Below, in pieces: positions 18,954-53,508 of a stretch of 64,000 nt of DNA. The first letter of the stretch is position 1. Every line of letters starts with the position of its first letter. Made by a program: the position numbers and the translations under genes. This DNA comes from a virus. The stretch is from the IMG/VR virus record IMGVR_UViG_3300009512_000010, positions 95,935 through 159,934 of that record. One strand, given 5' to 3'. The notes under the pieces are model-generated. The model ran no database searches. It had not been told where the DNA came from and saw nothing but the letters and a program-made list of their open reading frames with translations.

Positions 18954-19514
18954 TTAGTCTCTGTAGAGATACAAATCAACAGGGACGCAGATCCGTAGTT
19001 CGGAGTAGTAAGGGTTGACGTGGTGATAAGCGAAACTTGGGAAGATCAAGAAGTCTCCTGTCTCAGGTTGATGATGATGTCTGTTAAACATTGGATTGAA
19101 ATATTCGTCATACCCCCGATTGGCATTAGATCTAGGATCGTGTAGCACCAAGTCGCCGCCCGAATTTTGATCTTCTGCTAGTATATAGAACACGCCAGAT
19201 AAGTGTGCTCCCGAATGATTGTGAATAGTCATTGAATAGTCTTTACCGTGACCAGTGATCCAACCCTTTAGCTTGTAGTTGTCCCAATCCTCAATAGAGC
19301 AATCAATAGTACTCTTTAGGTAGTCATTAAAAGCACTCTTAACAGTACTATTAAAGGCACTCATAACAGCACTCTTATCATCCAATATGTTATATCCACC
19401 CAAATCGCTAGGTGGTTCGTTTAGATTGTATGTGCTAAATATATGTTCCACTAAACCAGTGGTGTCGAACTTTCCTTGACCCATCTGTGTAGGCCATAGA
19501 TTATGGATATCCAT
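18954..19514 (-). CDS. 2-oxoglutarate/Fe(II) oxygenase-like protein
   Basis: The 186-residue protein resembles the TIGR02466-type oxygenases common in marine phages. HNHSGAHLSGVFYILAE (about residues 97-113) supplies the first metal ligands, with LVLHDPRS following; FLIFPSFAYHHVNPY has the distal His and LRICVPVDL the Arg expected to bind 2-oxoglutarate. The substrate is unknown. It is upstream of, and co-directional with, the PLOD-like gene with a 25-base gap, so it may act on the same target. Confidence 0.8.
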   Translation of the reverse strand: MDIHNLWPTQMGQGKFDTTGLVEHIFSTYNLNEPPSDLGGYNILDDKSAVMSAFNSTVKSAFNDYLKSTIDCSIEDWDNYKLKGWITGHGKDYSMTIHNHSGAHLSGVFYILAEDQNSGGDLVLHDPRSNANRGYDEYFNPMFNRHHHQPETGDFLIFPSFAYHHVNPYYSELRICVPVDLYLYRD

Positions 19515-19624: not shown

Positions 19625-19909
19625 ATGACTATGATGAACACAGTACTTGACCAAATCAATCGTATGGACGCTTCAGAAATCAACCGTGTAGTTGAAGCGA
19701 TCAAATCTCGCCGCAACTCACTGTCTTATGCCACAAACGCTACCTTGCGTGTTGGCGATATTGTCTCTTGGATGCGCCGTGATGGAAGCACTGTAACAGG
19801 ATCTGTTAAGAAAGTTAATCAGAAAACAGTTATAGTAAATGAACGTAATAACCCCAATGTTTGGAAAGTATCTTCAAGCATGCTTACTCCACTGTCTATA
19901 GGTGGATAA
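19625..19909 (+). CDS. Small phage protein of unknown function
   Basis: The product has 94 residues. The ATG at 19625 is chosen because AGAGAGAA precedes it by a normal distance; an earlier in-frame ATG at 19607 has no such site. The first 35 residues are helical and basic (IDQINRM-type amphipathic helix, VVEAIKSRRN). The second half looks like a small beta-barrel of SH3/KOW type (LRVGDIVSWMRRDGSTVTGS, then KVNQKTVIVNERN). This could bind nucleic acid or a ribosome component. It leads the plus-strand operon and its stop overlaps the next start (TAATG). Confidence 0.75.
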   Translation: MTMMNTVLDQINRMDASEINRVVEAIKSRRNSLSYATNATLRVGDIVSWMRRDGSTVTGSVKKVNQKTVIVNERNNPNVWKVSSSMLTPLSIGG

Positions 19910-20373
19910 TGACATTTGACGAATTCTTCGACTTCTTGATGAGTGAAGAATGTTTTAATGACTGTTCGGTCTCCTTTATTAACAATAGAGGAGAACAACA
20001 GTACATAGAGCATGACGATTTATTTGCATATAGGGGCAAGGTGGTTGATCTTTGGTTTAGTGGAGATGATACGATTAAGGTAGAGGGATATGAACGTATC
20101 CAACCTTATGATGGGACTATCCATATATTCTATGCTCCTACAAATGCTCCTTCATTTCCTGTACATACAGATCCTATAGATATCTATATCGAATGCCTTG
20201 ATGGGCGTAAGATAATGGAAATTGACGACCAATACGTGATGATAGAAAAGGGAACGAAGATCTTTATTCCCGCAGACACACCACACGTTGCGCTCAACTC
20301 AGAGAAAGCATTGACATTAAGCTATGGCATTAACGACACAAACACATTCGGTAATCTACGTAAAGACTACTGA
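19909..20373 (+). CDS. Cupin-like protein, possible Fe(II) oxygenase
   Basis: The 154 residues start at the ATG overlapping the previous stop. A helical N-terminus (MTFDEFFDFLMSEECF) precedes a double-stranded beta-helix region: FPVHTDPIDIYIECLDGRKI carries His and Asp where cupins bind metal, and IPADTPHVALNS carries the distal His. This pattern also fits a small JmjC-like oxygenase. It is the first enzyme-like gene before four radical SAM genes. Substrate unknown. Confidence 0.7.
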   Translation: MTFDEFFDFLMSEECFNDCSVSFINNRGEQQYIEHDDLFAYRGKVVDLWFSGDDTIKVEGYERIQPYDGTIHIFYAPTNAPSFPVHTDPIDIYIECLDGRKIMEIDDQYVMIEKGTKIFIPADTPHVALNSEKALTLSYGINDTNTFGNLRKDY

Positions 20374-21355
20374 AACTTGTAATCTTAATTGCAGTCACTG
20401 TTTTACTTCTGGTATGAATGGGCGTAAGATCTATTTTGATCACGTGAAGACCGCAAATTGGTGTAACGAACTCGACACTGGCTCTAACCAGATCCATTTA
20501 GAGTACCATGGTGGTGAGCCTATGCTTGCGCCCATGGCACACCTACGAGAATTCCATGACATCACTAAAGCTCAATGGGGTGATCGTGCAACTCATGGTA
20601 TCACAACAAATCTTGTGTTTAAGCTTACCGAAGAGAAACTTGCATTCTTTAGTGAAATCATTACAGGTGGTAACATCGGCACCTCATGGGATCCTAATAT
20701 TCGTTTTACTAACGAACATCAAAGGAAGATGTGGGAAAATAATGTTAAGCAGTTGACAGGACTTGGGCATAGTGTCAAGTGCTTTATCTCTGTATCTAAG
20801 GATGTTATTAAACTACAACCGTTGGAGATTGCTGATTATATGGAGTCTCTTGGTGTTGCTGAGATCTCTTATGAACGACTTACCCATGATGGTAATGCCA
20901 CAATCAATACGGACATCTTTCCTCATAACTCTGAACTAGATGCTTGGTGGATGCTGATGCATGAACAAACTCAAGATCACCCTGTAGAAAACGGCTTTAT
21001 GGGATCCATCTACGACAAGTTCAACAAAGGGCAGTTCCAGATCGGCACATTCTGTCGTGATTGCGAACAAAAGATCCACACTATTAATGCAGACGGTACT
21101 GTCGCAGGCTGTCCTAACACCGCACCAACCATGCATTATGGTCATATAGATACACCAGCAAAGGAAGTAAGATTAAGTCCTAAGCGTATGGAGATCATAT
21201 CTTGTGAACAGCATGAACGTGATGAACGGTGTTACAAATGTCCAGTCTTTATGTATTGCCATTCTGACTGTCATCAGTTACAATGGATGGATGATGTGTG
21301 CCCTGCGCCTAAAACATTGATGATGAAGTTAGCGAAAGAGAAGAAATGGATTTAA
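20324..21355 (+). CDS. Radical SAM protein with SPASM domain (1)
   Basis: The 343-residue protein has the 4Fe-4S/SAM motif CNLNCSHC (C19, C23, C26) and the SAM-binding GGEP at 63-66. A Cys-rich C-terminal third (CRDCEQ, VAGCPN, CEQHERDERCYKCPVFMYC) is a SPASM-type auxiliary cluster domain, typical of peptide-modifying enzymes such as PqqE and anSME. The start overlaps the cupin gene by 50 bases and has only a weak ribosome site, so a slightly later non-ATG start is possible. Confidence 0.9.
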   Translation: MALTTQTHSVIYVKTTETCNLNCSHCFTSGMNGRKIYFDHVKTANWCNELDTGSNQIHLEYHGGEPMLAPMAHLREFHDITKAQWGDRATHGITTNLVFKLTEEKLAFFSEIITGGNIGTSWDPNIRFTNEHQRKMWENNVKQLTGLGHSVKCFISVSKDVIKLQPLEIADYMESLGVAEISYERLTHDGNATINTDIFPHNSELDAWWMLMHEQTQDHPVENGFMGSIYDKFNKGQFQIGTFCRDCEQKIHTINADGTVAGCPNTAPTMHYGHIDTPAKEVRLSPKRMEIISCEQHERDERCYKCPVFMYCHSDCHQLQWMDDVCPAPKTLMMKLAKEKKWI

Positions 21356-22383
21356 TCGTAAAGCCAACCGAAGCGTGTAACTTCAAGTGTACATTTTGCT
21401 CGTCAACAGATATCGATCCCAATGAGGTTGGTCTGTTAGACTTGAGCTATATCTATAGGTTCTTAGAAAGGTTTCCAGAGACTAACACAATTATTGTTAA
21501 TGGTGGTGACCCTCTTATGGTCAAGCCACAGTATTATCAAGATCTAATTGACCACCTTAATGAGCATGATTACCCAGCAAGCATTAGCTTTACGTCCAAC
21601 CTTTGGCCTTTCCTAATGAAACCTAAGAAGTGGTTACCCATCTTTCAGAACGAACGATTTGGTTGTGCCACATCATTTCAGTATGGTGGCGGTAGACTAA
21701 AAGGCGATTATTCAGAGTTCACAGAGGCAGACTTTTGGATGGTGTCTAATGCCATGTTGAAGCATACAGGTGAACGTCCAGATTTTATCGCAGTTATTAC
21801 AGAAGAGAATGAGCATCTCGCCATTAAGAATGTAGAACTAGCAAAAGAGATGGGCGTCGAGTGTAAGTTGAACTATGCTATGGCTTCTGGTGTACAGGGA
21901 TCTACGTATCAATTAAGCAAGATCTACGAAACATATCTTGAGATTTATGACCGTGGTCTAGCCGATCATGAGTTCAACACTAAGCAAATGATGAAACGTC
22001 TTGGGGGATCTTCTACATCATGCCCACAGAATAGAGCGTGTGATGAAGGTATCCGTGCATTTAACCCAGGAGGTGATTACTACTCTTGTGGTTCATTTGC
22101 AGATGATATGGATTATCCTATCGACTTCGAAACTGAGATGGCAGGAAAGTTGCAAACACCACTGCAACACGACCCCAACATTCAGACAATGAAGATGGCT
22201 TGTTACACATGCCCTATGTTTGAAATCTGCAATGGTTGTAAGAAAACTGTGCGTGATATGAAACGTGAAGGTACTGTTGAAGGTCATTGTAGGCAGATGA
22301 AAGCATTGGCACCTCGTATCCTTGCTACCAATAATATGAGTCCTGATGGAGTGACGCCCTATGTCGATGAATCTATCAATTAA
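21346..22383 (+). CDS. Radical SAM protein with SPASM domain (2)
   Basis: This is a 345-residue radical SAM enzyme: CNFKCTFC at C11, C15, C18; GGDP at 53-56; SPASM-like Cys in CPQNRACDEG, YYSCGSF and CYTCPMFEICNGC, plus a last Cys in GHCRQ. It overlaps the previous gene by 10 bases behind a GAAAGAGAAG site. It probably works on a peptide, from the SPASM architecture; the target is unknown. Confidence 0.9.
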   Translation: MDLIVKPTEACNFKCTFCSSTDIDPNEVGLLDLSYIYRFLERFPETNTIIVNGGDPLMVKPQYYQDLIDHLNEHDYPASISFTSNLWPFLMKPKKWLPIFQNERFGCATSFQYGGGRLKGDYSEFTEADFWMVSNAMLKHTGERPDFIAVITEENEHLAIKNVELAKEMGVECKLNYAMASGVQGSTYQLSKIYETYLEIYDRGLADHEFNTKQMMKRLGGSSTSCPQNRACDEGIRAFNPGGDYYSCGSFADDMDYPIDFETEMAGKLQTPLQHDPNIQTMKMACYTCPMFEICNGCKKTVRDMKREGTVEGHCRQMKALAPRILATNNMSPDGVTPYVDESIN

Positions 22384-23290
22384 CCCAACTTACTATTGTA
22401 ACTTCTCTTGCGACTTTTGTTACTTGACAAAGCAACAGTTAAATGATAGACACAAGATAAACCCAATGTGGTTACAACATTCTATGGGTCAAATAACAGA
22501 TCCTATAACTCATGTTGATTTATATGGCGGTGAGATTGGATTACTAACACCAGAGTATTATTATTCGATCAAAGAGGTGATTAGGAGATACTATGGTGGT
22601 AGTATCCACATCAACACAAATCTGTCAGCATTTCCAGACTTCTTCCGTGATGATGATGTTACCCTATCGGTATCTTATGACTTCCACGCAAGAGAGAAAG
22701 AACAGTTTGTTCTAAATAACATGATGAATGCTAATAAGGATCTTGCTGTCCTTATCCTTGCATCGCCTAAAGTATTGAAGATGGATGTGGAGTTTATGAT
22801 CTTCACTCTTAACATGGTTTCTAATGTCAAGTCGGTAGAGATCAAGCCTTACTCTATCAACCAAGCCAATGCATTTGATGTTACTCATAAAGACTTTGAG
22901 GACTTCGTTATTAGGTTTGATGAGGCTAAGACTAAGAAGAACTTTGACTTCCAAAACATACACAACATTTATAGAAGTATAGATAAAGAGTACAATGCCT
23001 TTTCCAATGACCACGTCTATATCACACCATCTGGTAAGTTTGGCGTATTGGAGTTTGATAAGCATGATAAAGAGTACTTCAAGGAGTATAGCACATATTA
23101 TGAATATAAACAATGGGCAGATAACGAAGCTGTTGATAATCTTAGCGACATTTGTCGTAGCTGTACCTATTTCGGTACATGTCTTACCGAGCACTATCGG
23201 TACGTATTGGATTTAGACAACAGTTGCAATGGATATAAAGGATTACTAGATTACTATGGAAAATTGGAAAGCGAGACAGAAGGCGTATAA
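22361..23290 (+). CDS. Radical SAM protein (3)
   Basis: This is a 309-residue enzyme with CNFSCDFC at C13, C17, C20, and YGGE at 55-58. The C-terminus has a shorter set of Cys (CRSCTYFGTC, then NSCNGYKG), resembling a twitch or reduced SPASM domain. It overlaps the previous gene by 23 bases, so the operon is tightly coupled. Confidence 0.88.
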   Translation: MSMNLSINPTYYCNFSCDFCYLTKQQLNDRHKINPMWLQHSMGQITDPITHVDLYGGEIGLLTPEYYYSIKEVIRRYYGGSIHINTNLSAFPDFFRDDDVTLSVSYDFHAREKEQFVLNNMMNANKDLAVLILASPKVLKMDVEFMIFTLNMVSNVKSVEIKPYSINQANAFDVTHKDFEDFVIRFDEAKTKKNFDFQNIHNIYRSIDKEYNAFSNDHVYITPSGKFGVLEFDKHDKEYFKEYSTYYEYKQWADNEAVDNLSDICRSCTYFGTCLTEHYRYVLDLDNSCNGYKGLLDYYGKLESETEGV

Positions 23291-23294
23291 TCAT

Positions 23295-23654
23295 ATGACA
23301 ACAAACCACCGTGACGATTTGACGGATGTTGATGTATTGAATAGGCCAGAATTTATTGTAGAAGATGCTTTGATGCACTTCGATAAGAGAGTGGATCAGT
23401 GGATCTACCCAGCGAAGTCGTTCTTCGTTGCAATCTGCTATGCCAATTGGATAGCCGAAGACTTTGGTGAGCAGTTCTATGATGTACTAAACTATAACGA
23501 ATTACTACCAGACGATCCACACTTCCTACCATATGAGAGAAGTAAAGAGATCTATGATGAGATCCTTTCTAAAGTTAATTTTGATAATACTAATGGTATG
23601 GTTCCAGATGTCTATGAGTATTACCAAGAGGAATTCATGATTGGACAACTTTGA
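23295..23654 (+). CDS. Hypothetical protein inside the radical SAM operon
   Basis: The product has 119 residues from the ATG at 23295, five bases after the previous stop; an ATG at 23256 in the same frame would add 13 residues. It is acidic with many aromatic residues (WIYPAKSFFVAICYANWIAE; PDDPHFLPYERSKEIYDEIL) and looks helical. No known family. It is sandwiched between radical SAM genes and could be a partner or substrate-recognition protein; there is no Cys-rich core region that would make it an obvious substrate. Confidence 0.7.
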   Translation: MTTNHRDDLTDVDVLNRPEFIVEDALMHFDKRVDQWIYPAKSFFVAICYANWIAEDFGEQFYDVLNYNELLPDDPHFLPYERSKEIYDEILSKVNFDNTNGMVPDVYEYYQEEFMIGQL

Positions 23655-24723
23655 CTTCACCAAACAGCTACTGGAATCTAAACGTCCAGACATAGCCGAG
23701 ATTGAGATGACACTCTTTGAGAACTGTCACCTCAACTGTTCTTTTTGTCACCACGACAAGAAGTCTACAGTAGGCTTGTCTCGTGAAGAGATCTTCTCCA
23801 AGATCCCTCTAGTAGAAGAGCATGTTATTAAGATGAAGAACCGTGCAGACGTTATTCAGATCAATATGCTTGGTGGAGAATTGTTTCAAGACCGAATATC
23901 TGAGTGGGCTTATGAGGTCTACTACGACTTCTTAGTTGAGATTAAGAAGATCTATGATGAACATAAGCAGAACATTAAAGTAGTTTGGGTAACATCCTTT
24001 CAGTTTAGTAAACGTGAGAGAGTTCAAAAACTACTTGATGATTTGAATGCAATAGACATTCCATCCTATATTATCTGTTCTTATGACTTTGATGGTAGAC
24101 CTGTCAAAGGACCTTATGGCAAGAACATAGAATACTTTGCTGATTATATCACATCTATTAATATGGTTGCAACCACTATTTCTATTAAAAAGTTTATGGC
24201 AGATGAGGACGAGTACTTTCACTATCTGTATAATAAGTTTGATAACTTCTACTTTGATGATTACATTCCTGATCGTGGTTATGACTATATGATCCCATCA
24301 GATAGTGAGTATCTTGAGTTCCTAAAGTTTGTGTATCATAACTATCCAGACATCAATCCTATCAAGGATCTGATCTATAACGAAACAAATCATATGCATT
24401 GCTTGGCTCTTAACAAGGTTACAATCTTTCCTGATAACTCTACATCAAACTGTAGATGGGATAGATATGACCAACGTGACTTCAACACGAAGTATGAGCC
24501 TAAAGATAATGCTGGTATGATGCAAGCTTATATGGATGAGAATGGTTGCTTGTCATGTAAGTGGTACAACAAGTGTGGCTTTAGATGTTATACACAATGG
24601 GATTGGAAGAACCGTGAACGAGATCTGCCCGACTGTATAATGCGCATGTGGTTTAACTACATGGACAAGACAGGACAAAACCAAATCACAGGATTTGATT
24701 ACGTGGGAACAAACACTCCGTAA
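23641..24723 (+). CDS. Radical SAM protein with SPASM domain (4)
   Basis: The 360-residue enzyme starts at a TTG behind AAGAGGAA; no ATG precedes the first Cys by a sensible distance except one at residue 23. The motif is CHLNCSFC (C29, C33, C36), with LGGE at 77-80. C-terminal Cys (CLALN, NCRWD, CLSCKWYNKCGFRCY, DCIMR) form a SPASM-like domain. It ends the plus-strand operon and its 3' end overlaps the opposing radical SAM gene by 38 bases. Confidence 0.88.
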   Translation: MDNFDFTKQLLESKRPDIAEIEMTLFENCHLNCSFCHHDKKSTVGLSREEIFSKIPLVEEHVIKMKNRADVIQINMLGGELFQDRISEWAYEVYYDFLVEIKKIYDEHKQNIKVVWVTSFQFSKRERVQKLLDDLNAIDIPSYIICSYDFDGRPVKGPYGKNIEYFADYITSINMVATTISIKKFMADEDEYFHYLYNKFDNFYFDDYIPDRGYDYMIPSDSEYLEFLKFVYHNYPDINPIKDLIYNETNHMHCLALNKVTIFPDNSTSNCRWDRYDQRDFNTKYEPKDNAGMMQAYMDENGCLSCKWYNKCGFRCYTQWDWKNRERDLPDCIMRMWFNYMDKTGQNQITGFDYVGTNTP

Positions 24724-25708
24724 CACCGTGATGCTCCATGTAGGATTGCACACCCTTATCGATACACGTCATCATATGAGCACATCCAGAACAACTATCT
24801 GTATTGGCAGTGTATGCTAATTGCGACCCAAAGTTGTCGCTTTTGGCACTTATCCAAGATTCAATATCATTCTCATCATGTACTTTAAACTTGTCTGTGC
24901 CTATCTTAACAATATCGTAGACGAATGGTGTCCAGAAGAAGTTGCCATTACAGTATGTGTAGTTAAGTTCTAAGGATCCGCCCTGTGCTTGATCGATGAT
25001 AGTAGAGGGAAAAGCGTCTTCTGCCCAATCATCTAGCTTCTTCCACTTGTCTATTAGATGTTTCTGTACCTTAAACTTATCCGCTCTAAGAAACGATGGG
25101 TTAAGAGTTAAGATCGTGTCAAACTCATCGTCAGCAATATCTGAGAACTCTATGACTTTGGCATTGGTCTTATCGTCATTACCCATATTCATTACAAGAT
25201 AGTAATTCAGATCGTCATCGAATAGGTTTAGCTTATCGATCATATCTTTGTATCCATGGGGGAACTTTTTAGGATCGATTGCTATGTTAGCATCGTACAT
25301 GAACCCATCTATTTTGGGTATGCTGTTAAGTAATTCGATAACCTCCGTTGAGATGTTGGTTAGAGTCGTCACGAATTGTATAGTAGAAACCTTACTCAAA
25401 CACTCTCGAAATGTTTCATCTCGCAATAACTCTATGACGTTGTTGTTGCCGAATAGATCAGTTGGTCCGATATTGATAGTGGAAACCCTATACCCATTAT
25501 TATTGAACAAGTCAATAGCATTGTTTAATCTTTCGTAGGATCCCATGTTAGTGCCTAGTTTGTTTACAAAACAACCCACACACTTGAACTCACATCCTGA
25601 CAGAACTTCAGCATTGAATATAACCTTGATCTCGTGTCCTTCGTTAAAGGATAGATCAAAGTCTGCATCAGCCTGAGCTTCTTTCTTGTTGTTAGTAACT
25701 ATTCCCAT
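24686..25708 (-). CDS. Radical SAM paralogue A of the IGPTD family
   Basis: The 340 residues start at the ATG preceded by AACGAGGA; upstream in-frame Met codons lie within the neighbour. The cluster motif is CEFKCVGC (C39, C43, C46). Where most radical SAM proteins have GGE, it has NIGPTDLFG (about 79-87), a motif shared by the five minus-strand paralogues. The C-terminal Cys set CSGCAHMMTC followed by ECLFPR suggests one auxiliary Fe-S cluster. It is the last gene of the minus-strand operon that begins in the fibre genes. Confidence 0.88.
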   Translation of the reverse strand: MGIVTNNKKEAQADADFDLSFNEGHEIKVIFNAEVLSGCEFKCVGCFVNKLGTNMGSYERLNNAIDLFNNNGYRVSTINIGPTDLFGNNNVIELLRDETFRECLSKVSTIQFVTTLTNISTEVIELLNSIPKIDGFMYDANIAIDPKKFPHGYKDMIDKLNLFDDDLNYYLVMNMGNDDKTNAKVIEFSDIADDEFDTILTLNPSFLRADKFKVQKHLIDKWKKLDDWAEDAFPSTIIDQAQGGSLELNYTYCNGNFFWTPFVYDIVKIGTDKFKVHDENDIESWISAKSDNFGSQLAYTANTDSCSGCAHMMTCIDKGVQSYMEHHGVTECLFPRNQIL

Positions 25709-26825
25709 GGTAATCCTCGTTATCGAATAGAGCAATAACATCTTTGTTTAATATACATTCAGATCTTCCCTCAAACATCGTATCCATAACTTTGGGTATC
25801 AATCTGTTGGAGCACACGTTGAGGTACTTACACGTTCCGCATTCTTTATTAGAACTATTTATTATCTGATCTGTAACGACTTGGTGTTTGTAATTTAAGA
25901 TACCTTCTACTGTATGTGTAGTGATCTCGAAGTCATCTTTATAGATCTGAGCATTCTCATAGATGAATGGTGACGCATATAGTTTGCCGTTGTGGATGTT
26001 CACCACCGCATAGTGAAATGCTTTGTGAGATAGATCCCCCTGTAAGAAGTGAAACTTGTTCTTAAAACGATTGACATCACTAGACAAGTTTGTCAACATA
26101 TCATTCCAAGCGAATAGTTTGTCTCCATGCTTGGTAGAATGGTTAAAGGATCTGACAACAGAGGGTAAGATTTCAATGACCGTGTCGTAGGTTTCACGTA
26201 TGTAGTCGATAGCTTCGTATAGCCTGTCTTCGATACCCTCTACAATGTTAGTTGCCATAGAGATCTCAAAGTCCAACGAACTCTCTTTGAAGTTCATCAC
26301 TCTGTTTCTCAATGCTTTCCTGTATCTTTTATCATCCAATACACGCACAAGATCTAAAGCAATCTGCACATCCCAAGACTCAACAACCTTACCAAGAGGA
26401 GACTTTTCGATAGCCTTGATCTTACCTAGAATATCATCTTCCGATAGAGACCCCATGATAGAACAGTTATGTTGAATGTTTCTATTACCTTCTGGTATCA
26501 TAGAGATGGCATCAGATAATCTGGCATTGTGTATGATTTCTTCTAGGTTTTCTGCACCATAGAAGTCTGTAGGTCCGATAACAATATCGTCTAACACGAC
26601 ATCAGTTCTACCATGTAATTCGTATGCCAGATTGTGAAACATCTTAATTGACTTGGGATTCCAATTACCTCTACGTTTAACAAAACAACCAGGACACATG
26701 TAAGAGCACCCTTCAAGTAATTCTAAAGTAACTTGGATCTTGTACTGCGTCATTGAGGATACTGAAGTAAACTCTTCTCCCACACCACCGTGCTTAACAA
26801 TGTCTTTCCAACTATTATTTAACAT
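25692..26825 (-). CDS. Radical SAM paralogue B of the IGPTD family
   Basis: The 377-residue protein has CSYMCPGC at C40, C44, C47, VIGPTDFYG at 82-90, and the C-terminal set CGTCKYLNVC, then ECILNKD. The start follows AAGGA by eight bases. It overlaps both neighbours by 11-17 bases. Residues after the first cluster read FVKRRGN, very like paralogue C, so B and C are probably the closest pair. Confidence 0.88.
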   Translation of the reverse strand: MLNNSWKDIVKHGGVGEEFTSVSSMTQYKIQVTLELLEGCSYMCPGCFVKRRGNWNPKSIKMFHNLAYELHGRTDVVLDDIVIGPTDFYGAENLEEIIHNARLSDAISMIPEGNRNIQHNCSIMGSLSEDDILGKIKAIEKSPLGKVVESWDVQIALDLVRVLDDKRYRKALRNRVMNFKESSLDFEISMATNIVEGIEDRLYEAIDYIRETYDTVIEILPSVVRSFNHSTKHGDKLFAWNDMLTNLSSDVNRFKNKFHFLQGDLSHKAFHYAVVNIHNGKLYASPFIYENAQIYKDDFEITTHTVEGILNYKHQVVTDQIINSSNKECGTCKYLNVCSNRLIPKVMDTMFEGRSECILNKDVIALFDNEDYHGNSY

Positions 26826-27978
26826 AGGAGATGTCCTTAATTCGTTCTAGTTCTGGATCGTCATCTGTTGTAACAAGAAACCTCTTACGATAACCCTTCT
26901 TATCGTTTTCAACAGAATAGTCATCCCACTGATACATCTTCTGAGCAGGTGCATTATAGTTATGTATATGTTCCATCATATTCTGCTTAGGAGCAATACA
27001 ACGATCAACTCCAAGGTAATCTCTGAGTAGAATAATCTTTCTATTGTAACAAGACATCATCAAGGGACAAGTTTCGCACTCTGTGCCCTTGACCCTTTCC
27101 AACTGAGATTGTACAATAGGAAGCACATCGTCAAAGTTATCCACTTTAAACATCTCATGGTACAATGCCATGTTTTCGTACATAAACGGCGAAATGAACC
27201 ATTCGCCCTTTTTATAGTTTAGTACGGTATAGTTCATGCCACCGTGTGAGTGGTCTACCATTATGTTATTTAATTCTGTTTCTTTATAAGCACTTAGCTC
27301 GTTAAAGAAGTCATTAAACTTGTCTAATGTATCTAATATTAGTTTAGGCTTGTGAGAACGTGAAACAGACGGTACAAAGTCTAATATCGTTTTAAAGCGT
27401 TCTATTGCACTTTTATGCAGTTTAACGTAGTCTAGGCCATAATCACGTATATTGACCACAAACGTATATGTCACTTCATGTTCTAGGTTTTTATCAATGT
27501 ACTCCAACATCTTGTGAATATGCTGTACATAATCCTCATCAAAGAACTTGTTAACATTCGTTGCGATACCAATTTCAATCTCAGTATCTATGTTAATATT
27601 ATTTGTTATGAAAGCAACCCATCGTGGAAGATCCCCATCAATCAGTGTGCTGACAAATGCAAGAATGGGTGAGTTCTCATTAATGATATCGACTAGAGAT
27701 GGCATGACCTCATAGAAGTTTTCGGACGCAAGAAAGTCTGTAGGTCCGATAAGGATCTCGTCAACCAAGATGCCTCTATCAGTTATGTCTCGTATGAAGT
27801 CTTTGGCTTTATGGATCTGATGTTCATCACTAGCATTACCTCTGCGATGCACAAAACATCCCGGACATTTGTGATGACAACCATCTAGGATATCAAGCTG
27901 AAGTTTAACCGCCGAGACTGGTTTAGTTTGCGTCTCTGTGGTTAGCTCGTAATATAAGTTGTTCTTAATTAACGGCAT
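26815..27978 (-). CDS. Radical SAM paralogue C of the IGPTD family
   Basis: The 387-residue protein has CHHKCPGC at C34, C38, C41, LIGPTDFL at 76-83, and the C-terminal set CETCPLMMSC and RCIAPKQ. It carries an extra 40-residue basic tail after the auxiliary cluster (QKMYQWDDYSVENDKKGYRK) that the paralogues lack. It overlaps paralogue D by 14 bases. Confidence 0.88.
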   Translation of the reverse strand: MPLIKNNLYYELTTETQTKPVSAVKLQLDILDGCHHKCPGCFVHRRGNASDEHQIHKAKDFIRDITDRGILVDEILIGPTDFLASENFYEVMPSLVDIINENSPILAFVSTLIDGDLPRWVAFITNNINIDTEIEIGIATNVNKFFDEDYVQHIHKMLEYIDKNLEHEVTYTFVVNIRDYGLDYVKLHKSAIERFKTILDFVPSVSRSHKPKLILDTLDKFNDFFNELSAYKETELNNIMVDHSHGGMNYTVLNYKKGEWFISPFMYENMALYHEMFKVDNFDDVLPIVQSQLERVKGTECETCPLMMSCYNRKIILLRDYLGVDRCIAPKQNMMEHIHNYNAPAQKMYQWDDYSVENDKKGYRKRFLVTTDDDPELERIKDISYVK

Positions 27979-28990
27979 GCATATATTCTTTCAAGGCAAC
28001 ACAAGTGTTCAACTTCCTTGACTTCATATACACGTGTATGTTTCTTTCTGCGCAACTCATTAGGTATTCGCATGTGTTACAATCGTCTACTGTCTTTGCA
28101 TACTCTAGGTTAGTGCCCAACCATTCCTGATCCATTGTAGTTTGAAACTCAGGTGTTCTCTGAATGATTGCGTCATATAAAAATGGATTGATGTATAATT
28201 TGCCGTTGTAGAAACTATAGTTCTGACAGCCATATCCATTAAACCTAGCATCAAAGAATGTGTATAAGTTCCTCCACTCATCATTTATCTTCTGCTTACG
28301 CAGATCTGCCCTAAACATATCAAGAAACTTATTGACCTTACCACGTGCATTCTTGTCTGTCAAGAAAGAAGGTGCGATGACTATGGGTGCGTTAAAGTCT
28401 TCCTTGACTTTGGCACACAGATCATTATATCCTATTCTGTCAAACAAATCAGGAGTGTAGTTAACTCTGAACTGAACAGATCCAATGGTAAACATCTTTA
28501 TGTTTTCAAGGAAGTTGGGGTCAAGGTCATCATCAAGATACGCCTCAACATCTAACACAATCTTAAAGTCGATATCTGGAATTCTATTGATGTTACGATA
28601 GATCTGCCAAATCATATCAAGTTTAGGCTTGACAACCTTTGGGTCTTGTAATAGTGTAGATGTAAATCCGACACCACTTATAGCATACAGGTCTGTCATC
28701 GATGGGTGTGTCATCACCTCATCAAAGTTCTGAGCATCAAAGATGTCAGTTGGACCTATAGTAATTTCATCTGGATAGAACTGTCCCTTACACAACTCAT
28801 CGTATAGAGTAGCCATGTGATCAGGTGATGTCAAGTTCTTTCTTGGGATAAAGCATCCGGGACACATCTGATCACAACCATGGAGAATATCCAAGTTGAT
28901 CTCTGTGCGTAGGAAATCGGTATTAACAGGGCTTATGCCATGAACGTAACGATAGTACCCTGCTTCTGTTGCATTAAGCTTTGTTATCAT
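27965..28990 (-). CDS. Radical SAM paralogue D of the IGPTD family
   Basis: The 341-residue protein has CDQMCPGC at C39, C43, C46, TIGPTDIFD at 77-85, and the C-terminal set CNTCEYLMSC and TCVALKEY. Start and end overlap the neighbours by 17 and 14 bases. The ribosome site is weak, consistent with coupled translation from the preceding gene. Confidence 0.88.
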   Translation of the reverse strand: MITKLNATEAGYYRYVHGISPVNTDFLRTEINLDILHGCDQMCPGCFIPRKNLTSPDHMATLYDELCKGQFYPDEITIGPTDIFDAQNFDEVMTHPSMTDLYAISGVGFTSTLLQDPKVVKPKLDMIWQIYRNINRIPDIDFKIVLDVEAYLDDDLDPNFLENIKMFTIGSVQFRVNYTPDLFDRIGYNDLCAKVKEDFNAPIVIAPSFLTDKNARGKVNKFLDMFRADLRKQKINDEWRNLYTFFDARFNGYGCQNYSFYNGKLYINPFLYDAIIQRTPEFQTTMDQEWLGTNLEYAKTVDDCNTCEYLMSCAERNIHVYMKSRKLNTCVALKEYMHAVN

Positions 28991-30851: not shown

Positions 30852-32030
30852 TTACGCTCCGTCTTTCATTTTGTATTTAGTTGCATCATCATTCCATGTA
30901 AAGTCGAATGGATTATAGTGTTTCAATGTTTCTTTAGGTAATACACACCCATCAATATTGAGACTATCTTGAGCCTCGAATACCAATCTACTTGCACAAG
31001 CCATAGCAAACTGACAGTCTGCACAATCTTTTACCTTACTAGACTTATTTATACCCTTTGTAATCAGTTCGTTCTTACGTTGTAAGATCTCTTCGAATGT
31101 AAGTCCTGTTACGTCTAGGTTCTTATTAGTTATAAAGAACGCTTGTTCGTGAAGCATTACATTCAAGTGTGTCGTAGGTCCGTTCTCTCCTGGAACAATA
31201 GTAATGCCCACAAAGTTGATTGAGTTACAGTAGAGATTAGCCATAGACATAACAGTCTCACTAGCATTGTTCTCATCAATAACCGACTCAAGGAACTTAT
31301 TCCACGCAAACAAGTTGTTACGTTGAATGATTTGATTAGGTGCCCTAGCGAATGCAGGGTTCATTTCCATAATAGTGCCGAAGTCGTTTACAGAACGATC
31401 AATCAGCCTATTGTATTTCTCTTTGTCAATCTGCTTACCGACAACGTTAGAAGCCTGTAATGTCCAAGACCAATCCATCATCTTTGGAGTTTCGTTCTTA
31501 AAGAACTCTATTTTCTCCATAACTCTGTTATAGTAATCGTCATCATCCAACATCTCGTTAATACGACCAATCGGCATAATGAATTCGATAACCATGTCAC
31601 GTCTATACGCATCTAGGTCATCCAGAATAGCAAAGATCTCTCTGACCTTTTCCATTGAAGCATTGTCGAACTTAGCTGGAGACGCAATACGTGCATTAGT
31701 GTGTTCTCTCATTATAGCTTGAACAGTTGGGTTTGTCAATACTTCTTTTGTATTCTTAGCAGAAAATAGATCTGTAGGTCCGATAACAAACTCTCTTAGG
31801 TTACCACCCACACGTAATACACCATCAGCAAGTTCCTTAGCACGATCAATGATCTGTTGATTGCTTACAGGATCAATTGCTTTGTCAACGAAACATCCAA
31901 GACAGCCCTGTTCACATCCAGCCAGAACTTCCATCTGAATAAGAACATCGAACTTTGTTGCATCAGATGGTGCCAGACTTTCGGGTCCTGAGTATCTCAT
32001 CTGCTTACAATATGATTGTTGCATTGTCAT
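30852..32030 (-). CDS. Radical SAM paralogue E of the IGPTD family
   Basis: The 392 residues start at the ATG one base after the stop of the Cys-tail gene, with GAGGAAG before it. The motif is CEQGCLGC (C39, C43, C46), with FVIGPTDLFS at 81-90 and a C-terminal set CADCQFAMAC, then GCVLPKE. It is the paralogue directly coupled to the two candidate substrate genes, which makes it the first choice for the enzyme acting on their tails. Confidence 0.9.
   Translation of the reverse strand: MTMQQSYCKQMRYSGPESLAPSDATKFDVLIQMEVLAGCEQGCLGCFVDKAIDPVSNQQIIDRAKELADGVLRVGGNLREFVIGPTDLFSAKNTKEVLTNPTVQAIMREHTNARIASPAKFDNASMEKVREIFAILDDLDAYRRDMVIEFIMPIGRINEMLDDDDYYNRVMEKIEFFKNETPKMMDWSWTLQASNVVGKQIDKEKYNRLIDRSVNDFGTIMEMNPAFARAPNQIIQRNNLFAWNKFLESVIDENNASETVMSMANLYCNSINFVGITIVPGENGPTTHLNVMLHEQAFFITNKNLDVTGLTFEEILQRKNELITKGINKSSKVKDCADCQFAMACASRLVFEAQDSLNIDGCVLPKETLKHYNPFDFTWNDDATKYKMKDGA
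31046..31053 (-). promoter_or_regulatory. Possible internal late promoter
   Basis: TATAAATA in the context GGTATAAATAAG on the minus strand, inside radical SAM paralogue E and about 200 bases before the 367-residue gene. The sequence matches the consensus, but a chance match within coding DNA cannot be excluded. Confidence 0.35.
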
Positions 32031-32031
32031 G

Positions 32032-32418
32032 TTATCGTCTTCCTCTTGATGTATGACAGCTGGTGTGACAGCTTGAATGGCATAATACTGCTGAGATAGA
32101 TCTGTTAGTAAGTCTATCTTCAATGAGGTCTACGGTTCTTCGCACTCCGTCCTCTAATGTGTCTACGATGTCTTGTGAATATATCCTACTACCTGCGGAG
32201 ACTCCAGCATCAATATAGTTATCAAATAGAGAGTCAGCCGCACCTGTATATTCGAACCTATGTGTCGTAGTATTAGATCCTGTTCCACCCATAGCAGTGG
32301 GATTGTTATTCTGATATGCTGTAGTTGTTATAGTAATAGTTTTGTCAAACGTTCTTAACTTACCACCTGCGTAAGTTTGCATGTAGCTATCTATACTATC
32401 TCTGGTTAAATTGCCCAT
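32032..32418 (-). CDS. Cys-tail protein 2, candidate modified virion peptide
   Basis: The 128-residue protein is paralogous to the upstream gene. Shared blocks: LRTFDKTITITTTAY (about residues 21-35), RFEYTGAADS (about 53-62), AGSRIYSQDIVDT (about 75-87), and the C-terminus CHSSCHTSCHTSRGRR (113-128). The body looks like a small beta fibre protein with a helical stretch. The tail has three Cys, each followed by His and each His followed by Xaa-Ser, then a basic end. Its start overlaps the previous stop (TAATG) and one base separates it from radical SAM paralogue E. It may be a substrate of that enzyme or a metal-binding tip. Confidence 0.85.
   Translation of the reverse strand: MGNLTRDSIDSYMQTYAGGKLRTFDKTITITTTAYQNNNPTAMGGTGSNTTTHRFEYTGAADSLFDNYIDAGVSAGSRIYSQDIVDTLEDGVRRTVDLIEDRLTNRSISAVLCHSSCHTSCHTSRGRR
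32035..32082 (-). repeat. Cys-His-Xaa-Ser tail coding region, copy 2
   Basis: This encodes CHSSCHTSCHTSRGRR. The same 16 residues are encoded at 32421-32468 with different codons at nine positions and no amino acid change. Confidence 0.9.
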
Positions 32419-32804
32419 TATCTACGACCTCTTGATGTGTGACAACTAGTGTGACAAGAGCTATGACATAACAATGCTGAAATGGATCTGTCAGTGATAC
32501 GAGATTCAACCTGATCTACTGTTCTTTGCATAACACTATTAATTGAGTCGATAACATCTTGACTGTACATTCGACTTCCTGTGTATATTCCACCATCCAA
32601 ATCGTTATTATAAGTTGAGTCAGCCGCACCTGTATATTCAAAGCGTTGGTTAAAGCCAGCCGAGCTTTGCGGTCCCGCTTGAGTCTGCGACACTGTTTGT
32701 AATGTATATGCAGTTACAGTAAACGTCATCGTTTTATCAAACGTCCTTAACTGGCTTCCAGCCTGTGCCTGTAAACTAGTGTTATTTTGTGCATAGGTTG
32801 GCAT
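32418..32804 (-). CDS. Cys-tail protein 1, candidate modified virion peptide
   Basis: The 128 residues include LRTFDKTMTFTVTAY, RFEYTGAADS, GSRMYSQDVIDS and the same C-terminus CHSSCHTSCHTSRGRR, about half identical to its neighbour overall. There is no signal peptide or membrane segment and no Cys outside the tail. The ATG directly follows the stop of the collagen-like fibre gene (TAAATG), and its own stop overlaps the start of copy 2. It is therefore co-translated with fibre genes on one side and radical SAM genes on the other. Confidence 0.85.
   Translation of the reverse strand: MPTYAQNNTSLQAQAGSQLRTFDKTMTFTVTAYTLQTVSQTQAGPQSSAGFNQRFEYTGAADSTYNNDLDGGIYTGSRMYSQDVIDSINSVMQRTVDQVESRITDRSISALLCHSSCHTSCHTSRGRR
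32421..32468 (-). repeat. Cys-His-Xaa-Ser tail coding region, copy 1
   Basis: This encodes CHSSCHTSCHTSRGRR, identical in protein to 32035-32082 but different at many third and Ser/Arg codon positions. Confidence 0.9.
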
Positions 32805-33878
32805 TTATACTTTAACCTCAACTAGCCCTTCACCATCCTCTAGTGCCACACCCACAAAGTTCAAGAAGTTCATGCGCATTGCGGCAGTCGTATCAGCTGG
32901 AAGTGCTTTACATTTACCATTATCATCTGCTACTATATAGTCGCCTTTTTGAGCAGTACCATTTATCTTACAAGGGATACGTCCTTTAAGCGCAATGAAA
33001 GGCCATAGAGGATCCTCCATGTTATCTTCATTAACGTTCATTCGAACACCCGGACGTGTAGAGATAATGCCAGCGATAGCCATACCCTTTTTGTATAGAG
33101 TTACCTCTTTTTCGCCACCAACAGCCAACAGATCTCCATGTTCATATCCTCTATCGGCTAAATATTTCTCCGCTAAATCCGACCAGTTTGCAGACGTTGC
33201 TGTACCATTAAATGTACCATCATTAGCAATATATGATGTATCTGTACCATTTCTTCTAAACTGAACAATTCTGTCTGATGATTCGTCTGCAACAATATAC
33301 CATCTATTTGAGTGGTACTGAATTTTACCTTTTGTGCCCGGATCACCTGTCCAGTTAGATGACGCATTGGAGAAAAGACCACCGTTGGTGATATCAAGGT
33401 TACCACCACCGAACTGACCAATCTCACCTTTTTGTCCTTTAGATCCTGTGGCTCCAACTTCTCCCTTTTGTCCTTTTGCTCCAGTTACACCAACTTCGCC
33501 TTTTTGACCTTTTGCTCCAGTTACACCAACTTCGCCTTTTTGACCTTTTTGACCTTTTTCACCAGTAAGTCCAACTTCGCCCTTTTGTCCTTTTTGACCC
33601 TTATCTCCAGTAAGTCCAACTTCACCTTTTTGACCCTTTTGACCTTTAACGCCAACTTCGCCTTTTTGTCCGATCTCGCCTTTTTGACCTTTTGCGCCAG
33701 TGTCTCCAGTCTGTCCTTTTTGTCCTTTTTCGCCCTTTTGTCCCTTTGGGCCAGTTGGAGCATCGGTAAAGGTAGTGGCTCTCCACACACCTTTTGCACT
33801 TTCAAATGTCCACGTGACATTGTTAGCGGTGTGGGTTGCGCCATTCGATGGCGATGATGGGAAATTAATTGCCGCCAT
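32805..33878 (-). CDS. Collagen-like fibre protein (1)
   Basis: This is a 357-residue fibre. Residues 1-42 form a globular start (FPSSPSNGATHTANNVTWTF). Residues 43-156 are 38 uninterrupted Gly-X-Y triplets (GQK, GEK, GQK, GEV and similar) of which 22 have Lys at Y, always followed by Gly. The C-terminal 200 residues contain SDLAEKYLADRGYEHGD and GIISTRPGVRMN, a domain frequent in marine T4-like phage fibres. With almost no Pro in the triplets, stability would have to come from Lys chemistry or from modification, and X-Lys-Gly is the known lysyl hydroxylase target. The PLOD-like enzyme at 17000-18928 is the likely modifier. Confidence 0.92.
   Translation of the reverse strand: MAAINFPSSPSNGATHTANNVTWTFESAKGVWRATTFTDAPTGPKGQKGEKGQKGQTGDTGAKGQKGEIGQKGEVGVKGQKGQKGEVGLTGDKGQKGQKGEVGLTGEKGQKGQKGEVGVTGAKGQKGEVGVTGAKGQKGEVGATGSKGQKGEIGQFGGGNLDITNGGLFSNASSNWTGDPGTKGKIQYHSNRWYIVADESSDRIVQFRRNGTDTSYIANDGTFNGTATSANWSDLAEKYLADRGYEHGDLLAVGGEKEVTLYKKGMAIAGIISTRPGVRMNVNEDNMEDPLWPFIALKGRIPCKINGTAQKGDYIVADDNGKCKALPADTTAAMRMNFLNFVGVALEDGEGLVEVKV
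33411..33752 (-). repeat. Gly-X-Y coding repeat in collagen-like gene 1
   Basis: This holds 38 triplet codons dominated by GGx-CAA-AAA-type units, with near-identical 18-36-base blocks repeated several times. Such runs are prone to slippage and recombination, so length is likely to vary between relatives. Confidence 0.85.
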
Positions 33879-33881
33879 GGA

Positions 33882-35582
33882 TTATGCGCCTCCTGCGCCA
33901 TATAGAGTTTTCAATGCAGTTCCACCTGAGTTGTAAATAACAAAGGATACGACAGATTTTAATTCATTTGAGCCAACAGCATCATCTGCAAGCTTATCTT
34001 GTATTACGGAATTATTTGCTAAATGTTCTGAATCTATGGAATACGCCGCATAGTGTTCGGAGTTAATTGTATCATCAGCAATCTTAGCACCAGTTACGGC
34101 ATCATTAGCAAGTTTAGCTGTAGAAATAGCACCATCAGAAACAACCGAATTATTAAATTGCACCCATTGACTAGATGTACCATCATCGTAGTAGATATAT
34201 AGGGATCCTGTTTCATCGTCCCACCACAAGTCACCGTCTACTGCACTACCTGGTGCTGTGGTGTTTGTAATGGCTTCGTTGCCTTCACCCTTTTGGCCTT
34301 GAGTACCAGTTCCACCCTTTTGACCAACTTCACCCTTTTGGCCTTTGTCACCAGTTTGACCCTTTTGGCCCTTAGTACCAGACGCACCGTTACCATCAGC
34401 ACCAATCTCGCCTTTTTGACCCTTTTGACCCTTGCTTCCAGTTTCGCCCTTTTGACCCTTAGCTCCGTTAGTTCCAGCTTCGCCTTTTTGACCCTTGTCT
34501 CCAGCACCACCAGTAGAACCCTTTACGCCAACTTCACCTTTTTGGCCTTTTGATCCGTTAGCTCCACCTTCGCCTTTTTGACCCTTGGCTCCATCACCAC
34601 CTGCACCACCAGTCTGTCCCTTTTGGCCTTTTTGACCTGCGAGACCTGCGTTGGTAATAGTATGCTTTTCCCATGTGCCAGCGGACACATCGAATACAGG
34701 AATAATATCAGTTCCTACCGCATCAGTACCTGTTGTGAATGCTGTTAAAGCAGATCCAACATTAGCCGCATCTGTGACATCGGCATTAGCTTCCACATTG
34801 TCTAGCTTACCACCGTCCGTCGAAACATCTCTTCCATCAACAGTACCTGTTACAGTAATGTTTCTAATGCCAGAAATGTCACCGCTATCATCTTTCGAGA
34901 TAACCGTACCAGATGTTGGCAAAGTAAGTGCAGTTGTTCCGCCTGTAGTAAGTGTCGTTGCATACGCACCTGATGTCGTAAACGAACCACCGAATGCTAG
35001 GTTGCCCAATGCACTTAATGTTCTATTGGCATTGCCAACATCGAAAGTTAGTGTTCTATCAGCACTTGCATTTACAGAACTGTTAGCGGCAAGTATTAGT
35101 TCATATGAAGCAACAGTATTATCTCTAAGAGAGAATGTGCTAATATCTGTAATAGATCCGCCAATTGCACCAACACCAGTAATGCTTGGTGTTGTAAGTG
35201 TCTTGTTAGTAAAAGTTTCTGTACCAGTAAGTGTTGCAAAGGAATTGCCGCCACTGAGTGCGGCGTTCCACTGACCAATAGTACCAGTCAGTGAGTTGTT
35301 TGTTAGGTTAATACTTTTGTTAGTAAGAGTTTGAGTGCCACTTAATGTAGCCGCAACTGCCGAGTCTAATCTTAGTAAGACATCAGCATCGTTAGTTCCT
35401 GAGTTAAGTACAGTAATGCCAGCATTAGACCCTTTGGGGCCAATGGTGCCAACGAAGTCACCCATCGTGCCAGAGTCCATAGCAATGTTAGTGTCTCTGA
35501 TAATAGCAGTAACTGCCGCAGAGTCAACGAGTGCCTGTAGACCTAGACTGATGTTTAGATGATCACTTAGTTTAACAACCAT
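33882..35582 (-). CDS. Collagen-like fibre protein (2)
   Basis: This is a 566-residue fibre. Residues 1-312 are a beta-repeat shaft with phage-fibre signatures (TLTNKSINLTNN, ETFTNKTLTTPSITGVG). Residues 313-435 are Gly-X-Y triplets with one interruption near residue 399, with Lys again mainly at Y. The C-terminal part has DGDLWWDDETGSLYIYYDDG, then LANDAVTGAKIADDTI-type repeats, ending ELKSVVSFVIYNSGGTALKT and LYGAGGA, an end shared with the fibre at 60020-61441. The probable trimeric tail fibre is a second candidate substrate for the PLOD-like enzyme. Confidence 0.92.
   Translation of the reverse strand: MVVKLSDHLNISLGLQALVDSAAVTAIIRDTNIAMDSGTMGDFVGTIGPKGSNAGITVLNSGTNDADVLLRLDSAVAATLSGTQTLTNKSINLTNNSLTGTIGQWNAALSGGNSFATLTGTETFTNKTLTTPSITGVGAIGGSITDISTFSLRDNTVASYELILAANSSVNASADRTLTFDVGNANRTLSALGNLAFGGSFTTSGAYATTLTTGGTTALTLPTSGTVISKDDSGDISGIRNITVTGTVDGRDVSTDGGKLDNVEANADVTDAANVGSALTAFTTGTDAVGTDIIPVFDVSAGTWEKHTITNAGLAGQKGQKGQTGGAGGDGAKGQKGEGGANGSKGQKGEVGVKGSTGGAGDKGQKGEAGTNGAKGQKGETGSKGQKGQKGEIGADGNGASGTKGQKGQTGDKGQKGEVGQKGGTGTQGQKGEGNEAITNTTAPGSAVDGDLWWDDETGSLYIYYDDGTSSQWVQFNNSVVSDGAISTAKLANDAVTGAKIADDTINSEHYAAYSIDSEHLANNSVIQDKLADDAVGSNELKSVVSFVIYNSGGTALKTLYGAGGA
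34278..34646 (-). repeat. Gly-X-Y coding repeat in collagen-like gene 2
   Basis: About 41 triplets, residues 313-435, with repeated GQK-GEx units. It is similar in codon pattern to the first run but less regular. Confidence 0.85.
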
Positions 35583-43286: not shown

Positions 43287-44237
43287 TTAATCATCTATTG
43301 AATAATAGTGGTTATCAACTTCCATGGCAAAACCATTTAGGTAACTTCTTAGTTCCGTAGGTGATGTTGCATGACGCAAGTATCTTTGGGGGTGTTCCGT
43401 TACGCTATTTGTTTTGAAATCAAACTGAGACACCTTAGTGGGCGTATTACCATTACCAGTATTCCAACTAGTATGCTGAACACTTACTGATATCTCAGAA
43501 CCCTTATCTTTCTGGTGCTTGAAGTAGAAACCGTCATGATAATGGTCACCCGATATAAATGATCCAAAGCATACTGTGGGTAGGTTTATAATAGCCGCAC
43601 CATAATAACTACCACCATGTAAAGTGAAATGCATTTTGCTGTGTTTCAATAGGGTGAAGATCTGCTCCTCTCCCATTGTATAATCGACACGCTTCACTGG
43701 TAGCTTACATATGTTATCTATATCATCAATAACATCTAGTTGTCCAGAATGTCTAGCAATTTCATACTTGGCAGATCCTTTTAGATCATCTTGAAAGTCG
43801 TGGAGTGTAATGTAATCTCCATCACGTTTAGCTTGCCAACTTTCATTCAAAGGCCATATGGAAGATGATGCCCATCTTTCTTGGATTGTATTAGCGTAAA
43901 CATCTTCATATTCGTATATGGTGAATATCACACCATTAGTGGGTGGGTGGTAGTTTTCCAGAAGCCATATGATGGTCTCCATGACTGTCCAACTATTACT
44001 GTCCTTAACCTTCTTACCATTACACCATTCAGTGTCTATCATGATACATACTTTGTATGGTTCTTTGACAATCCCACTGTCATTCATGACTTGTATTCTA
44101 TAGAGCAATGGGGCGAACTGTGAAGTCAATGCCGCATATGCTCTACAGTTACCATCATCAAGTTTTACGATGTGGTTTTCTGGTGTAGCTCTTTCGTTGC
44201 TTTTACACCCTAATGCAATGGTCTTTATATGCTTCAT
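43287..44237 (-). CDS. Probable glycosyltransferase
   Basis: The 316 residues start at the ATG six bases after AAGGA; an in-frame TTG lies two codons earlier. The C-terminal half has LLKHSKMHFTLHGGSYYGAA followed by NLPTVCFGSF, similar to the donor-binding end of GT-B enzymes (GT9-like). The N-terminal half is a Rossmann-like mix. No catalytic residue can be assigned with confidence. It overlaps the oxygenase gene and ends the three-gene minus-strand set. Confidence 0.5.
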   Translation of the reverse strand: MKHIKTIALGCKSNERATPENHIVKLDDGNCRAYAALTSQFAPLLYRIQVMNDSGIVKEPYKVCIMIDTEWCNGKKVKDSNSWTVMETIIWLLENYHPPTNGVIFTIYEYEDVYANTIQERWASSSIWPLNESWQAKRDGDYITLHDFQDDLKGSAKYEIARHSGQLDVIDDIDNICKLPVKRVDYTMGEEQIFTLLKHSKMHFTLHGGSYYGAAIINLPTVCFGSFISGDHYHDGFYFKHQKDKGSEISVSVQHTSWNTGNGNTPTKVSQFDFKTNSVTEHPQRYLRHATSPTELRSYLNGFAMEVDNHYYSIDD

Positions 44238-44700
44238 TTTCAATCCTTGTTGGGTCTACTAGAAAGTAGTTATATGTATATCTTGTTTCGTCGCTAGACT
44301 TATAATCATGCCACGTCACACCTGTTTCTCCACAGAATATCATTAGACGATTAGGTTTCCATTCAATGGTCTCTTGTTTGCCATCGATATAAAATGTCGT
44401 TCCATGGTTTTTCTCTGGACTGAGATATATGATTGCTGACATGATCTTAAACTCTGCTTCATCATGCATCTTGTGGGTAAAGTTTGGGACTGTGGTTGCG
44501 GTGTGTATAAACCTAGCCAATTCTCTATAACCACGTTTCTTACCAAAGTAATTTGCAAACTGCGCAATCTCTGGTGTTGGATCATAGTCGTACCAATGCC
44601 TACTAACACTACCGTCTTGCTTGGTAGATCTTGCATCAAAGAGTATAGCATTGTATGTTTCTTCTGATAAGAAGTTATCTCTTATAAGTATTTTTGTCAT
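44203..44700 (-). CDS. 2-oxoglutarate/Fe(II) oxygenase-like protein
   Basis: This 165-residue enzyme resembles prolyl 4-hydroxylase-type oxygenases. HKMHDEAEFKIMSAIIYLS (about 76-94) carries the HxE/D ligands and the first core strand; LMIFCGETGVTWHDY has the distal His; ETRYTYNYFLV has the Arg for 2-oxoglutarate. It overlaps the upstream radical SAM gene by four bases. The substrate may be a peptide or a sugar; not determined. Confidence 0.8.
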   Translation of the reverse strand: MTKILIRDNFLSEETYNAILFDARSTKQDGSVSRHWYDYDPTPEIAQFANYFGKKRGYRELARFIHTATTVPNFTHKMHDEAEFKIMSAIIYLSPEKNHGTTFYIDGKQETIEWKPNRLMIFCGETGVTWHDYKSSDETRYTYNYFLVDPTRIENEAYKDHCIRV

Positions 44701-45641: not shown

Positions 45642-45643
45642 GT

Positions 45644-45651
45644 TATAAATA
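45644..45651 (+). promoter_or_regulatory. T4-type late promoter, plus-strand island B
   Basis: TATAAATA on the plus strand, 36 bases before the nitroreductase start. It indicates that the plus-strand sugar and radical SAM island is expressed late. Confidence 0.75.
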
Positions 45652-45667
45652 CCCCTGAATACTTCAC

Positions 45668-45675
45668 TATTTATA
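45668..45675 (-). promoter_or_regulatory. T4-type late promoter for the minus-strand radical SAM gene
   Basis: TATAAATA on the minus strand, 27 bases before the start at 45641. It faces the plus-strand late promoter, with start points predicted to overlap by a few bases. Confidence 0.7.
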
Positions 45676-45686
45676 GGGAAATTAAA

Positions 45687-50364: not shown

Positions 50365-50714
50365 ACTTAATTTGGGATAAAGACCTGTCTACGTTTTGTC
50401 TACTCGATTCCAATTACAACATGATACAAATGGATCTTGAAAAGGAAAACGTTCTGCACAAACTAATATCCAATCTAGTACAAGATGATATTATCGATCA
50501 CAGTCTTATAGGCGATGAGGTGGATGACATATACCTATTTCTAATAGAGAAGATATATGCGACAACCAACCCAACGAACCATAGTATATATAAATTTAGT
50601 AAGACTTTAAATCAAAAAACTAAGATGAAAATCATCACGGCATTCAATGTGTTTCTCAATGGTGTCATGCAAACCAAAACGAACTCAAGGATAGTGGCAC
50701 AATATGAGACCTGA
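50340..50714 (+). CDS. Hypothetical helical protein
   Basis: The 124 residues start at the ATG at 50340. It is acidic at the start and mainly helical (ENVLHKLISNLVQDDIIDHS; VDDIYLFLIEKIYATTN), with one Cys. No known family. Lies between the aminotransferase and a radical SAM gene, overlapping both. Confidence 0.65.
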   Translation: MQYDTDELNLIWDKDLSTFCLLDSNYNMIQMDLEKENVLHKLISNLVQDDIIDHSLIGDEVDDIYLFLIEKIYATTNPTNHSIYKFSKTLNQKTKMKIITAFNVFLNGVMQTKTNSRIVAQYET

Positions 50715-53507: not shown

Positions 53508-53508
53508 A

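Follow-up and report, generated by a model that had tools for sequence, protein, structure and literature searches.

A constant Cys-His tail on phage fibre-locus proteins, genomically tied to radical-SAM/SPASM enzymes, as a probable RiPP-like core

Why should two neighbouring virus genes, whose products have diverged over most of their length, end in exactly the same residues? The question is raised by a window of 64,000 nucleotides (the whole stretch of DNA analysed, positions 95,935 to 159,934 of IMG/VR record IMGVR_UViG_3300009512_000010), in which the adjacent genes A and B both encode the C-terminus CHSSCHTSCHTSRGRR (Table 1). The initial annotation had described two paralogues with identical tails, silently different tail codons and bodies about half identical, and each of these observations was reproduced: the last 16 residues of A and B are the same (17 with the preceding Leu), nine of the 17 codons differ, all silently (including Ser TCA vs AGC and Arg AGA vs CGT), and the bodies show 49% identity over 110 aligned residues. 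The whole 159,934-base record contains four matches to the tail pattern, two per paralogue, and none elsewhere. The identity of the two tails is not chance; gene conversion was considered as its source and rejected. A sorting-signal reading was also set aside, since on inspection of the sequence the residues preceding the tail form no hydrophobic segment. An AlphaFold2 model of tail protein B (pLDDT 79; tail region of low confidence) gave no match to solved structures.

Purifying selection on the tail residues themselves, the explanation first offered, is borne out by the homologues. Pooled pN/pS over 42 aligned homologues is 0.65 in the body vs 0.19 in the tail, the residual tail value arising from the free x positions and from switching of Ser between AGY and TCN codons (scored partly as non-silent by the counting method). 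Thirteen Cys, His, Ser, Arg or Gly positions of the tail never change in the 42 homologues, although synonymous codons are in use; in an alignment of 43 homologues, invariant columns number 12 of 16 in the tail and only two (F22 and E100) outside it. Each of the 13 IMG/VR loci found in the search for relatives has this ending, mostly in adjacent pairs. Nor does the tail vary freely when sampled independently of its own sequence: in 70 tails collected through the neighbouring enzyme F3a (see below), Cys, His and RxRR are invariant, Ser, Asn or Ala occupies the third position of each unit, and the second position is variable, with Gly allowed. The Xaa-Ser pairs of the initial annotation are thus to be read as a constrained third position that is not strictly Ser, and its RGRR as RxRR: the Arg positions are fixed and the Gly is replaceable by Ser, Ala or Asn.

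Part of the constraint on RGRR is exerted at the level of DNA. An ATG lies within 12 nt of the tail stop codon for 165 of 175 tails, and in 122 of these 165 the RGRR codons read AGAGG just 5' of that start: in most loci the RGRR coding sequence is, in part, the ribosome-binding site of the next gene. Protein-level selection on the tail therefore stands, with the qualification that for RGRR it shares the ground with this second function. (In the window, the RGRR codons among the stop-proximal codons of A, 32032-32082, and B, 32418-32436, double as the Shine-Dalgarno sequence of the next gene.) Could conservation reflect DNA or RNA function of this kind, and not the protein at all? As the sole cause this is already largely refuted, and we give it next to no credence: silent codon changes are found throughout the tail, the Cys-His repeats are encoded 5' of the ribosome-binding site, RxRR is kept in five cases where no ATG occurs within 25 nt, and it is kept with CGN codons, so that selection on the protein remains.

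The initial annotation missed both a wider family and the radical-SAM operon to which it belongs. At least 119 stretches of IMG/VR matched the pattern CHxSCHxSCHxSRG (some contigs are included twice, and the loci are thus partly non-independent), and almost all of these stretches have (CHx[S/N/A])x3 plus RxRR as the exact C-terminus of a protein of roughly 120-310 residues. The tail is thus shared at the C-terminus by a large and apparently undescribed family of proteins encoded at fibre loci. Median identity between members is 0.28 for the bodies (shuffled baseline 0.22), 0.88 for the tails and 0.48 for the neighbouring F3a. About five genome-contig matches (L143, L144, L147, L151, L155) were discarded as chance reading frames. 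Agrobacterium phage Atu_ph07 (gp170), Burkholderia phage FLC6 (gp72), Sinorhizobium phage Phosso and Pseudomonas phage pPa_SNUABM_DT01 have the same operon and ending; these named phages were reached through the neighbouring enzyme, the tail protein itself having found no named phage by tblastn, probably because the repeats are masked. Another locus, L026 (3859-8266), has four tandem radical-SAM genes of CxGCF type and a tail protein unlike that of the window.

Clustering of the neighbouring genes reveals a recurring order: fibre, cupin, F3a (a radical-SAM/SPASM enzyme), tail protein, F2, F6, further radical-SAM genes and 2OG oxygenases. At 73 of 145 tail-bearing loci F3a is directly upstream of the tail gene; directly downstream is F2 (73 loci) or an F7a radical-SAM gene (43 loci). 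Every locus having at least 4.5 kb on both sides (31/31) has both F2 and a radical-SAM gene no more than 4.5 kb away, and F6 is present in 28 of the 31. Because these loci had been picked by their tail, a converse search was made by F3a alone. The tail is present in 75 of the 80 loci so picked (the best 80 of 375 relatives by score, a sample that excludes distant enzymes), including 41 of 46 contigs new to the tail search; at the five loci without a tail only 3-290 bases remain past the enzyme match. This converse test is decisive for the linkage of tail and enzyme. As to the accessory genes, F2 (approximately 235-250 residues) matches a protein of Ralstonia phage RSF1, and a model of an F2 relative (pLDDT 93) found no match among solved folds, matching only phage proteins of unknown function; F6 had no match among named phages.

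Radical-SAM clusters of marine phages have been reported as auxiliary metabolic genes (PMC5332604; PMC7150976), and the cluster seen here might likewise be a metabolic or Fe-S auxiliary gene set whose proximity to the tail protein is incidental. This we regard as very unlikely: diverse phages and the chromosomes of Bdellovibrionota keep a fixed operon order about the tail gene, and no complete genomes seen here have tail and cluster routinely unlinked. Peptides or proteins are, moreover, the usual substrates of SPASM enzymes. In the open-licence literature we found no description of the tail, nor of a radical-SAM cluster tied to a fibre protein.

The window itself has the order fibre, B, A and F7a, all four genes abutting with almost no gap. 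An F7 enzyme thus adjoins the tails in place of F3a; the F3-type enzymes and the cupin are on the opposite strand, 7-12 kb from the tails (F3a at 11 kb). Both fibre proteins (32805-35582) contain long collagen-like repeats. Inspection of the sequence also reveals a second unusual gene cluster at 43287-58592, with further radical-SAM genes at 44697, 50704, 51730 and 52556 and with ATP-pyrophosphatase-, aminotransferase-, carbamoyltransferase- and glycosyltransferase-like genes.

Table 1. Tail genes and surrounding genes, in positions of the window.
Feature	Position	Strand	Remarks
F11 family, probably 2OG-Fe(II) oxygenase	18954..19514	-	assigned via related family
Cupin-like protein F5	19909..20373	+	
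Radical-SAM/SPASM F3a	20324..21355	+	complete CX3CX2C and seven-Cys SPASM pattern
Radical-SAM/SPASM-type F3c	21346..22383	+	
Radical-SAM F3d	22361..23290	+	
Small companion protein	23256..23654	+	relative of phrog_20737
Radical-SAM/SPASM-type F3b	23641..24723	+	
Radical-SAM-like F7e	24686..25741	-	
Radical-SAM-like F7d	25692..26825	-	
Radical-SAM-like F7c	26815..27978	-	
Radical-SAM-like F7b	27965..28990	-	
F2, conserved accessory protein of ~250 aa	28974..29810	-	likely start 29732
F6, conserved accessory protein of ~370 aa	29746..30849	-	without known domain
Radical-SAM-like F7a	30852..32030	-	CX3CX2C motif GCEQGCLGCF; start directly follows A stop
Tail protein A, 128 aa	32032..32418	-	C-terminal tail at 32035-32082
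Tail protein B, 128 aa	32418..32804	-	identical tail at 32421-32468
Collagen-repeat fibre protein	32805..33878	-	carries C-terminal domain seen upstream of tail genes
Second collagen-repeat fibre-like protein	33882..35582	-	

What might the enzymes do to the tail? Phages and Bdellovibrionota alike conserve the CX3CX2C motif and the seven-Cys SPASM pattern of F3a. Most of the NCBIfam models nearest to this enzyme describe peptide-modifying enzymes (the SPASM domain model alone is matched above its cut-off), and its nearest solved chains are the radical-SAM domain of ChlB and an anaerobic sulfatase-maturating enzyme. Given a constant tail on variable bodies, inseparable from a radical-SAM enzyme of peptide type, the tail is likely the substrate; and, being invariant, Cys and His are likely the reacting residues. 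The reading that we favour, and consider reasonably probable, is that a fibre-associated virion protein carries the tail as a RiPP-like core, which a radical-SAM enzyme modifies at Cys and His. According to this proposal (Cys-His-x-[Ser/Asn/Ala])x3-Arg-x-Arg-Arg would be the modification site (core) of a phage-carried, RiPP-like maturation system. The tail protein would be made beside the tail fibre, and F3a – with F2, F6, the cupin and other radical-SAM and 2OG enzymes as helpers – would recognise the constant tail on its highly variable bodies and install bonds or oxidations at Cys and His. The choice of the acting enzyme, among the many in the system, is a guess from adjacency. The likeliest chemistry would be either thioether links from Cys, or ring closure at His-x-[Ser/Asn/Ala], the latter being proposed because the third residue always has a beta carbon and the second may be Gly. 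The modified tail could then sit on the tail or capsid fibre as a hardened or metal-binding end that aids contact with the host surface. A five-unit variant, CHTNCHSSCHSSCHSSCHGSSGGW, found at the C-terminus in a 504-kb contig (L058:560-1141), is without RGRR and keeps F3a-like and F2 neighbours, which supports the repeated units as the target sites.

Alternatively, the three Cys and three His of each chain may do no more than bind metal: on a trimeric fibre the tail might be an unmodified tip holding Zn or Fe, with the radical-SAM genes serving another purpose. Metal-bearing spike tips are known in phages, and it is Cys and His that are invariant. We nonetheless think this unlikely: tail and SPASM enzyme go together whichever of the two is used to pick the loci, and plain metal binding would have no need of such enzymes, nor would it account for the fixed RxRR or for a third residue confined to Ser, Asn or Ala.

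The proteins encoded next door suggest where a modified tail would be placed. A C-terminal fibre domain is encoded upstream of the tail gene at 62 of 85 loci and is absent upstream at 23. With fibre genes usually adjacent, and with RxRR resembling a basic docking end, the tail might be a mere recognition tag that docks its protein to the fibre or to the enzymes, the modified residues lying in the fibre or elsewhere. To us this seems quite unlikely: the tail is linked more tightly to the enzyme (75/75 informative loci) than to the fibre domain, three strictly repeated Cys-His pairs are not usually needed for docking, and the five-unit variant, whose Cys-His units and enzyme persist in the absence of RGRR, suits a core of repeated targets. 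For a modified core on the virion, Atu_ph07 offers a pointer: virion mass spectrometry of this phage is reported to place virion proteins in clusters that include CDS 170-215 (PMC6102473), and in matching numbering gp170 is the first gene of that cluster, a place at the boundary that makes it a candidate virion protein.

The locus is also bacterial. It is present in five genomes of Bdellovibrionota (3 of 129 genomes of one class), and at the three loci with longer flanks the operon lies among ordinary chromosomal genes, near pseudopilin-like genes and near a gene whose product weakly resembles the C-terminal domain of the phage fibres. Both pseudopilin-like genes scanned (2/2) contain Peptidase_S74, a fibre chaperone domain. 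L166, L168, L170 and L171 are such chromosomal copies near pseudopilin-like genes. It is possible, and we propose it tentatively, that a radical-SAM pathway common to phages and some Bdellovibrionota is dedicated to building a Cys-His tip, cross-linked or metal-binding, on a surface fibre.

The large radical-SAM/oxygenase clusters of marine and jumbo phages, hitherto called metabolic auxiliary genes, thereby gain a testable candidate substrate, and with cultured phages carrying the operon the reading can be tested now. If it is true, phages install radical-made amino-acid chemistry on a virion protein of the fibre locus; the host-recognition tip would be post-translationally modified, and host prediction from sequence would miss this layer of recognition. 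A dedicated pathway, if real, would to our knowledge be the first known to apply RiPP-type chemistry to a structural protein of the virion. Through the same operon, which in Bdellovibrionota adjoins pseudopilins with the fibre chaperone domain, phage fibres are linked to the surface appendages of that predatory group.

How does the system compare with those already described? Defence was considered and rejected: PADLOC families gave only weak radical-SAM-type viperin matches (≤34 bits), with no match for the tail protein, F2 or F6. We know of no described fibre tip that is matured by radical-SAM enzymes. As in phage tail-fibre adhesins and S74-type fibres, the tail genes adjoin fibre genes, and the bacterial copies near Peptidase_S74-fused pseudopilins recall S74-type fibres and the MAT fibres of Bdellovibrio, the paper on which makes no mention of radical-SAM enzymes (PMC10769870). 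Among enzymes, the anaerobic sulfatase-maturating enzyme is one of the nearest solved relatives of F3a and modifies Cys or Ser of a protein, but its substrate motif is another and the scores, 32-46, are far below the cut-off of 349. The Hxs system (HxsA-D) likewise joins radical-SAM genes to a neighbouring gene for a protein with His-x-Ser repeats at its C-terminus. The present tail differs in having a Cys before each His and RxRR at its end; the accompanying enzymes fall below the HxsB and HxsC equivalog cut-offs (29.4 bits vs 370, 30.1 vs 267.9), and the HxsA and HxsD models have no match in the tail proteins or other scanned genes of the window, nor in the L168 tail protein, F2 or F6/F16 relatives. 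With the radical-SAM/SPASM maturases of RiPPs (PapB for ranthipeptides, DynA for dynobactin, DarE for darobactin, FxsB/YhhB for cyclophanes) the enzymes share superfamily and SPASM domain, although they score below 50 bits against the NCBIfam cut-offs of 340-650 for these named subfamilies. Here, moreover, the precursor would be a 120-330-residue protein at a fibre locus, its body long for a RiPP leader, and each locus has many radical-SAM genes; unsystematic inspection of the operon turned up no cleavage protease or exporter. What is common to both is an arrangement typical of RiPP systems in the broad sense: the gene for a SPASM radical-SAM enzyme adjoins that for a putative precursor, in which the residues of a C-terminal core are conserved and the rest is variable.
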